From positions 504,477 through 568,476 of the forward strand of contig NZ_DS989904.1 in the NCBI RefSeq assembly GCF_000155595.1: DNA of 64,000 nt, given 5' to 3'. The stretch's first letter is position 1, and each line of letters begins with the position of its first letter. Under the pieces are notes generated by a model. The model was not told where the DNA came from and ran no database searches. It saw nothing but the letters and a program-made list of their open reading frames with translations. This DNA is from Synechococcus sp. PCC 7335 (GTDB lineage: Bacteria > Cyanobacteriota > Cyanobacteriia > Phormidesmidales > Phormidesmidaceae). The position numbers and the translations under genes are program-made. This document shows positions 1,766 through 14,100 of this stretch, in pieces.

Positions 1766-2494
1766 ATGAGCAATACCAGTAACTTTCGTCAGGCTATTCG
1801 TGAGGCCCAAAGTCAATCGATAGTGGGTCCTAACGTCATTGCGAACGCTTTGCCCTACGTTGGTGGCGGCCTAATCTTGACGGCAGCCGGAACCTTTGGC
1901 GGCCTCAACGTCCTTCGAACAAACCCCGGTTTGTTCATGCCTACTTTCTTTGTGGCAATCGTGGCAGAGCTTATTCTGTTTTTTGTTGCCCGCAGCGTAG
2001 CGATGAAAGGGAACAACGGCGTTGCCCTACCGCTACTGGCCACTTACAGTCTGCTCTCCGGATATACGCTTAGCGGGTTAGTCTCTCTAGCGCTGCAAAG
2101 TAGTGGAGTGGGTATCCAAGGTGTCGGCTTTGCAGCCCTAGCTTGTGGGCTCACCTTCATTGCGGCTCGGCCGATCGGATCTAACCTGTCTGAAGAAGAC
2201 GGGATGGCACTGACTAAAACCGTCCAGCTTGGCATCATGGCTTTGCTAGTTGTGATTGTTGGTCAGTTTGTCTTTAGCTTTTTTGGTGTCTATGCACCTA
2301 ATTTTCTAGAGATTGCTATTTCAGCGATTGGCGTCTTGCTATTTGTAGGCGCAGCGGTGGTCGACTTTTTCGTGCTGCCCCGTACCTACAGCGATGACCA
2401 AGCGATCCCTGCAGCCCTATCGATGTACCTGACATACATCAACCTGTTTGTCTTTATTCTCAGACTGTTGATCGCAATCAACGGCAGAGATTAA
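1766..2494 (+). CDS. Bax inhibitor-1/YccA-family membrane protein
   Basis: The 242-residue protein is almost entirely hydrophobic and has about seven membrane-spanning segments after a polar N-terminus of some 30 residues. Its overall layout, with the repeated VGAAVVDFFVLPRTYSDDQ and AALSMYLTYINLFVFILRLL blocks near the C-terminus, fits the Bax inhibitor-1 (TMBIM/YccA) family, where a late Asp-containing helix is involved in pH-sensitive ion leak. In bacteria the family is linked to membrane proteostasis, but a specific role cannot be read from the sequence. It stands alone, divergent from sigF and 136 bases ahead of prfB. There is no clear Shine-Dalgarno sequence before the ATG. Confidence 0.8.
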   Translation: MSNTSNFRQAIREAQSQSIVGPNVIANALPYVGGGLILTAAGTFGGLNVLRTNPGLFMPTFFVAIVAELILFFVARSVAMKGNNGVALPLLATYSLLSGYTLSGLVSLALQSSGVGIQGVGFAALACGLTFIAARPIGSNLSEEDGMALTKTVQLGIMALLVVIVGQFVFSFFGVYAPNFLEIAISAIGVLLFVGAAVVDFFVLPRTYSDDQAIPAALSMYLTYINLFVFILRLLIAINGRD

Positions 2495-12128: not shown

Positions 12129-12449
12129 TTACAGATACTTTTCTAACGTATTAGCCAAAGTTGTCTTAGGAACCGCACCGACAACCATATCCACTCGCTG
12201 ACCACCCTTAAAAATCATTAGCGTCGGGATACTGCGAATACCGTATTGACTAGCAACACTAGGGTTTTCGTCTGTGTTGACCTTGACTACTTTAACTTGA
12301 CCATCATACTGCTCAGAAATTTCGTCAACAACGGGCGCTACCATTCGGCAAGGACCACACCAAGGTGCCCAAAAGTCCACCAGCACTGGTGTCTCGTTTT
12401 CCAAAACTTCTTGCTTAAATGTCGAATCTGTGACCTGTGCGGCTGACAT
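12129..12449 (-). CDS. trxA: Thioredoxin
   Basis: This is a complete 106-residue m-type thioredoxin that reduces disulfides in target proteins. The active site WCGPC places the redox cysteines at C31 and C34, preceded by LVDFWAP; the cis-proline block [13 protein letters not shown] follows at about residues 71-83. The gene lies downstream of yfr1 and guaB3, in the same orientation, the conserved cyanobacterial order, and ends before a clear terminator at 11963-11993. Confidence 0.95.
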
Positions 12450-12936
12450 TCTTAAAATCCTTAGTCACTCATGTACTCTGATCTTACCATAGCCAAAAGC
12501 TGTCCCCTTTTTTCACCCGCTACAGATTTCTTCCGTATTGAGTCTCGATTTCTTCCTTATTACATAGATCTTCGCTGTATAGGCACGCTCTAATAAAGAC
12601 TATACCTAACGTCAAAGTCCCACATATCAGAGTCGGCAACCCTAAGGAACAATACCATCAATCAAAAGGAACCGCCTAGATCAAAAGATCTAGGCGGAGT
12701 GTGGTGTGAGGAGTGAACGGAAACTTTCGTCTCCGCTTCTTTTTAATTGTAAGAGACTCTTAGAAATTTGCCATAGAGGTTCTTGGATAATCAAAGACAA
12801 GTCTTTATACTAGCCAGGCTCTGTTTAGCGTTAGCTCATATTCAGCTCGAGCTCATATCTATTATTGTGGTCAATTGTGGTTACCTTGCACTCTCAAGAT
12901 GGTTGCCATTGGATCAAACGGCCAAATACTGAGCGA
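12450..12936. other. guaB3-trxA spacer carrying yfr1
   Basis: The 487-base spacer contains the Yfr1 small RNA gene at about 12664-12736. The remaining parts hold the trxA leader (12450-12663) and the guaB3 3' flank (12737-12936), where I see no further gene. Confidence 0.7.
12664..12736 (-). ncRNA. yfr1: Cyanobacterial small RNA Yfr1
   Basis: Read on the minus strand this is a first hairpin CGGAGAC-GAAA-GTTTCCG (12735-12718), a single-stranded stretch containing the ultraconserved ACTCCTCACAC (12714-12704), and a terminator hairpin with a perfect 11-bp stem (12697-12672, loop TTTT) followed by TTCCTTTT. This two-hairpin plan and the core sequence define Yfr1, and its position between guaB and trxA is the known conserved location. 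In picocyanobacteria Yfr1 base-pairs through this core with outer-membrane porin (som) mRNAs, and in Synechococcus its loss impairs stress growth. The exact 5' end is inferred. Confidence 0.93.
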
Positions 12937-14100
12937 CTACTTACCCATGCCTAGCTGCTGAGCTTTCTGGTAAACTTTGCCCTCAGTCAGCAGCGAAGGG
13001 GCTATCACCACCTCTACTTGCTGCATCTCCTTAAGATCTTTTGCCCCCAAAGTACCCATACTGGTTTGCAAGGCGCCCAAAAAGTTGTGCGTTCCATCAT
13101 CTAGCTGAGCAGGCCCACGAAGAATTTGTTGCAAAGAGCCGGTTGTACCAACCTCGATTCGAGTACCCCGCGGTAGGACTGGACTCGGTGTTGCCATACC
13201 CCAGTGGAACCCGCGTCCAGGAGCCTCTTGAGCACGGGCGAACGGAGAACCAATCATCACCCCATCAGCACCAGAAGCAATACACTTACAGATATCGCCG
13301 CCTGTCACCAAACCGCCATCCGCGATAATTGGCACATAGCGACCTGATTCTTTCTGATAATCGTCCCTAGCAGCAGCACAGTCAGCTACAGCCGTCGCTT
13401 GTGGCACACCTACACCTAGCACGCCTCTAGAGGTACAAGCAGCGCCAGGACCAATTCCCACTAGCACCCCTGCAGCTCCCGCTTTCATCAGCTTTAGAGT
13501 GACTTCATACGTTACACAATTACCTAACAGTACCGGAATTGGCATTTCCTCACAGAAGCTAACTAGATCAAGCGGTGTGACTGCCTTAGGCGATAAGTGG
13601 TCGGTAGAAACCACTGTCGCCTGCACAAACACAAGATCTGCCCCTGCCTCAGCGACAGTTTTGCCAAACTTAACTGCGCCTGCTGGCGTTAGGCTAACAG
13701 CGGCAATACCCTCTTGAGCTTTGATCTCTTGAATGCGTTTTGTGATCAAATCAGCTCGTACTGGCTGAGCATAAAGTTCTTGCATCAATGGTACGAACTC
13801 GGTCTTACCAACAGAGGCGATCCTATCGAGAATGGGATTAGGATTGTCATAGCGGGTCTGAATCCCCTCTAGATTGAGCACACCTAACGCTCCCAACTTA
13901 GAGAGTTCAACCGCCATTTTGACATCGACGACCCCGTCCATCGCGCTGGCAATGATAGGTATCTCTCTGGTAATGCCGCCGATTTGCCAGCTAGTGTCAG
14001 CAAGCTGTGGATCTAGGGTTCTTGCCCCAGGCACCAAGGCAATTTCATCAATTCCGTATGCGCGACGCGCTGTTTTACCACGACCAATTTTAATATCCAC
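12937..14100 (-). CDS. guaB3: GuaB3-family IMP dehydrogenase-related protein
   Basis: The 387-residue TIM-barrel protein belongs to the IMP dehydrogenase/GMP reductase superfamily. The N-terminal block GRGKTARRAYGIDEIALVPG and the absence of CBS domains mark the GuaB3 type found in cyanobacteria and actinobacteria. The phosphate-binding and catalytic-loop region VGIGPGAACTSRGVLG is present, with the nucleophilic Cys. It is expected to act in guanine nucleotide metabolism; whether it serves as an IMP dehydrogenase here depends on whether another guaB exists in the genome. It lies upstream of yfr1 and trxA. Confidence 0.9.
   Translation of the reverse strand: MDIKIGRGKTARRAYGIDEIALVPGARTLDPQLADTSWQIGGITREIPIIASAMDGVVDVKMAVELSKLGALGVLNLEGIQTRYDNPNPILDRIASVGKTEFVPLMQELYAQPVRADLITKRIQEIKAQEGIAAVSLTPAGAVKFGKTVAEAGADLVFVQATVVSTDHLSPKAVTPLDLVSFCEEMPIPVLLGNCVTYEVTLKLMKAGAAGVLVGIGPGAACTSRGVLGVGVPQATAVADCAAARDDYQKESGRYVPIIADGGLVTGGDICKCIASGADGVMIGSPFARAQEAPGRGFHWGMATPSPVLPRGTRIEVGTTGSLQQILRGPAQLDDGTHNFLGALQTSMGTLGAKDLKEMQQVEVVIAPSLLTEGKVYQKAQQLGMGK

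Follow-up and report, generated by a model that had tools for sequence, protein, structure and literature searches.

On the minus strand of the window, the whole 64,000-nucleotide stretch that was analysed, the spacer between guaB (IMP dehydrogenase family; 12937..14100, upstream) and trxA (thioredoxin; 12129..12449, downstream) contained the gene of the small RNA Yfr1, with its RNA body at 12670..12737 (-). The gene was recognized by its match to the Rfam model RF01116, by its fold, and as the sole over-threshold copy in the genome. The match ran from 12736 to 12670 (-) and covered model positions 1-59, all 59 of them, with a score of 52.7 bits (E 1.4e-7 in the window) against a gathering score of 38 bits. 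Yfr1 had been named in the initial annotation, with a covariance-model search as its check, and this search bore the identity out. The interval given there, 12664-12736, holds the element, except that the predicted 5' stem begins one base beyond it, at 12737.

Structure of the Yfr1 RNA

Read along the minus strand from 12737 to 12670, the RNA consisted of a 5' hairpin, a linker, and a terminator hairpin with its tail. The 5' hairpin (12716..12737), which was also present in relatives, paired AGCGGAGAC with GTTTCCGTT over 9 bp beneath a GAAA loop, within the 6-10 bp taken as typical of Yfr1. The linker contained the unpaired core ACTCCTCACAC (12704..12714), the presumed target-pairing seed. The 3' hairpin (12672..12697) paired CCGCCTAGATC with GATCTAGGCGG over 11 bp around a TTTT loop and was followed by the tail TTCCTTTT; a GC-rich stem followed by U residues is of the Rho-independent terminator type. 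The tail 3' of the terminator, TTCCTTTTGA, had no unbroken run of U, and GGTTCCT was the common terminator tail in the relatives too. The core, the GAAA-capped hairpin and the perfect 11-bp terminator stem, which the initial annotation had placed on this strand, were all present.

Structure prediction for 12737-12670 (-) gave exactly two hairpins and an open linker, with a free energy of -33.2 kcal/mol (z = -6.8), whereas shuffled sequences averaged -13.1 kcal/mol (sd 2.95) and none of 200 was equally stable. The linker of this fold was unpaired over 18 nt, within the 16-20 nt taken as typical, and contained the exact ACUCCUCACAC.

A likely promoter, ATGGCA - 17 nt - TACAAT, was found at 12746..12774 (-). 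Its -10 box (12751-12746) ended 9 nt before the start of the Rfam match, and most relatives had TACAAT or TAGAAT at about the same distance from yfr1. The 5' end of the RNA would be expected near 12739-12737. In members of the same family, (G/A)TGGCA (12769-12774 (-) in the window) was observed about 17-20 nt upstream of the -10 box, at the position where TTGACA is expected.

Conservation and covariation

The 11-mer was identical in 56 of 56 sequences, and in 55 of the 56 it was followed by CA. The stems of yfr1 covaried across the 55 relatives while the 11-mer remained unchanged: 91.7% of the stem cells were paired, and two-sided changes were counted in 94 cells. Shuffles gave 36.9 such cells (sd 8.8), and sliding the partner strand gave no more than 18. 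The covariation score was 0.271 versus 0.176. Most of the covariation came from compensatory changes in the terminator, while the 5' stem was nearly fixed in sequence. Terminator stems of 10-11 bp were common among the relatives.

The 5' stem departed from this in a single genus of the family (L054-L056, about 2000-2075 (+); L051). There the near-invariant stem GCGGAGAC/GTTTCCGT was swapped for a different helix, for example CTCAAACA/TGTTTGAG, and the core was identical.

Genomic location

The initial annotation had described the guaB-trxA spacer as a conserved location, and the order guaB-yfr1-trxA on one strand agreed with the published one; guaB adjoins yfr1 in 25 of 31 genomes and trxA in 27 of 31 (Voss et al. 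2007, PMC2190773). Among our 56 loci (55 relatives and the window), guaB was upstream in 44, trxA was downstream in 41, and both were present in 31, always on the yfr1 strand; some contigs end too early for the neighbours to be judged. The location is a frequent trait of Yfr1, and not an obligatory one.

With co-directional genes on both sides and a terminator hairpin at its end, the element could also be read as merely the terminator of guaB or a part of the trxA leader, acting in cis with no free small RNA. We regard this reading as very improbable. Within the DNA fetched, the 11-mer and the 5' hairpin were kept at 12 loci without guaB and at 15 without trxA, and most relatives had a -10 box belonging to yfr1 itself. 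Pairing of the core with the trxA and guaB leaders was no better than with shuffles, and on this ground cis action on either gene was rejected. Moreover, northern blots show orthologs as distinct RNAs 54-69 nt long (PMC2190773).

Copy number and occurrence

The RF01116 search of the 6.0-Mb genome (11 contigs) returned one over-threshold copy; the runner-up scored 16.6 bits, which is at chance level, and no second, better Yfr1 was found on the 11 contigs. A single further exact 11-mer of this genome, at C1:2787678, was rejected as a second copy, as it fell within the 3' end of a reading frame on the opposite strand and its fold was not that of Yfr1.

Yfr10/Syr5-type RNAs bear the same motif (PMC6778093), and the element might on that account be one of these RNAs, sharing the 11-mer and no orthology with Yfr1. 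This possibility is more remote still than action in cis, since the match to RF01116 was full-length and both the hairpins and the location were conserved, whereas Yfr10 has neither conserved structure nor synteny according to its authors (PMC6778093). The other exact 11-mer of the genome has no Yfr1-like fold. The feature is Yfr1, with the published location and the published anatomy.

An over-threshold match was obtained in 56 of the 58 genomes searched, this one included, and among 14 control genomes solely in the cyanobacterium Synechococcus elongatus, which fits a cyanobacterial origin of the window. The two genomes in which the RF01116 search found no match were G033, which is 61% complete, and G043, which consists of 720 contigs and is rated 95% complete; the missing gene reflects either loss, which in G043 would be recent, or an assembly gap. 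Exact 11-mers in both were rejected as Yfr1 because their folds were nothing like it, and one of those in G043 was the opposite-strand reading of a porin target site. G043 (L129-L131) has no Yfr1 match, yet it retained GTGTGTGAGGAGT upstream of a porin gene.

Complementary sites at envelope protein genes

Porin mRNAs of the same genome had been proposed as the targets to be sought. The sole OprB-family porin found (PF04966 plus an SLH domain) has a start region that reads AGTGTGAGGAATAAGAGAAAAAATG, and its site GTGTGAGGA (C1:758041-758064 (-), equal to L084:2045-2065 (-)) contained 9 nt perfectly complementary to UCCUCACAC of the Yfr1 core and ended 12 nt before the ATG. The predicted duplex of this site with Yfr1 had an energy of -16.2 kcal/mol, which 1% of 300 shuffles matched. 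A second site belonged to a TonB-dependent receptor with an AMIN domain, GTGTGAGGAGAAATG (C1:3239069-3239083 (-), L093), where GTGTGAGGAG, 10 nt complementary to Yfr1, lay 2 nt before the ATG in this genome.

The strict pattern, GTGTGAGGA with an ATG 2-14 nt downstream, occurred seven times in the genome and not once in the reversed control. Two of the seven, those of the porin and the TonB-dependent receptor, were at starts of long frames, and this genome-wide search found no long frame behind the other five. The looser pattern TGRGGAGT...ATG was not enriched, with 21 matches versus 20 in the control.

The complementary sites at porin starts were conserved in relatives. A start could be read in 15 porin-like genes, including that of this genome. 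In the 28 nt preceding a start codon, 14 of them had at least 8 complementary nt and 12 had at least 9, the best of several candidate starts being taken per gene for porins and controls alike. None of the 79 control starts (41 trxA and 38 guaB) had such a site, and none exceeded 5 complementary nt. The porin site is partly an ordinary Shine-Dalgarno sequence; ribosome binding by itself could account for the conservation of its GAGGA part, but explains the GTGT half less easily. Repression of envelope mRNAs by Yfr1 through such sites is, for this organism, a prediction.

A candidate partner RNA

A match to Cyano-1 (RF01701), which we take to be the Yfr2 family, was found at C1:1820147 (L060:1501-1571, (+)) with 40.3 bits, 0.7 bits under the cut-off of 41, and the genome yielded no further Cyano-1 match. 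The 5' part of this RNA carried GTGTGAGGAG, which is complementary to Yfr1, and the predicted duplex of the two RNAs reached -20.5 kcal/mol, which none of 300 shuffles equalled.

Discussion

In published work, the Yfr1 11-mer pairs with the start regions of mRNAs and mostly represses them; 10 of 11 targets assayed in E. coli were down, and the effect is weaker when CCUC is mutated (PMC6974561). Yfr2, itself a binding partner of Yfr1, competes with the Yfr1 targets (PMC6778093). By analogy with this kind of work in Prochlorococcus and Nostoc, yfr1 would be expressed here from its own promoter as an RNA of about 70 nt ending at its own terminator hairpin, and the two hairpins would keep open the linker that contains the invariant ACUCCUCACAC. 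This segment would base-pair with GUGUGAGGA(GU) at the ribosome-binding sites of envelope-protein mRNAs, most likely those of the SLH/OprB porin and the TonB-dependent receptor, and lower their translation, and a Yfr2-type RNA with GUGUGAGGAG could bind Yfr1 and free the targets. The locus is almost certainly a cyanobacterial yfr1 gene, and the mechanism with the best support is the one already published, in which a trans-acting antisense RNA would act on envelope mRNAs and be titrated by Yfr2.

Yfr1 in this place is already known, and the find is an ordinary, well-supported one because Yfr1 lies in its usual place and the genome has matching start sites at the porin and the TonB-dependent receptor. 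It adds one more ortholog of a well-described RNA, cleanly annotated, where a pipeline limited to proteins would miss it. The part worth passing on is the conserved porin leader. SLH/OprB porins of many genera share the conserved leader GGTGTGAGGA immediately upstream of the start codon. It is therefore reasonably probable that the Yfr1 core is kept invariant largely by pairing with this repeated porin leader, together with the leader of the TonB receptor, and is tuned by Yfr2. If true, target findings made in single species would widen to a broadly conserved porin switch. Since complementary sites are conserved at the starts of porin genes, the reason for the constancy of the Yfr1 11-mer becomes testable.

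Like the Yfr1 described in 2007 (RF01116; Voss et al. 2007, PMC2190773), the element carries the invariant ACUCCUCACAC in an open linker flanked by two hairpins, has a 3' terminator and a single over-threshold copy, and follows guaB and precedes trxA on the same strand. The sole departure from that description is the terminator stem, 11 bp here versus 6-9 bp. The Cyano-1 RNA (RF01701) is a partner of Yfr1 and no relative, since its GUGUGAGGAG complements the Yfr1 core, but its sequence and structure are different and its locus is elsewhere in the genome. Yfr10/Syr5-type RNAs (PMC6778093) have the same 11-mer as this element but lack conserved hairpins and a conserved gene neighbourhood, both of which are present here.
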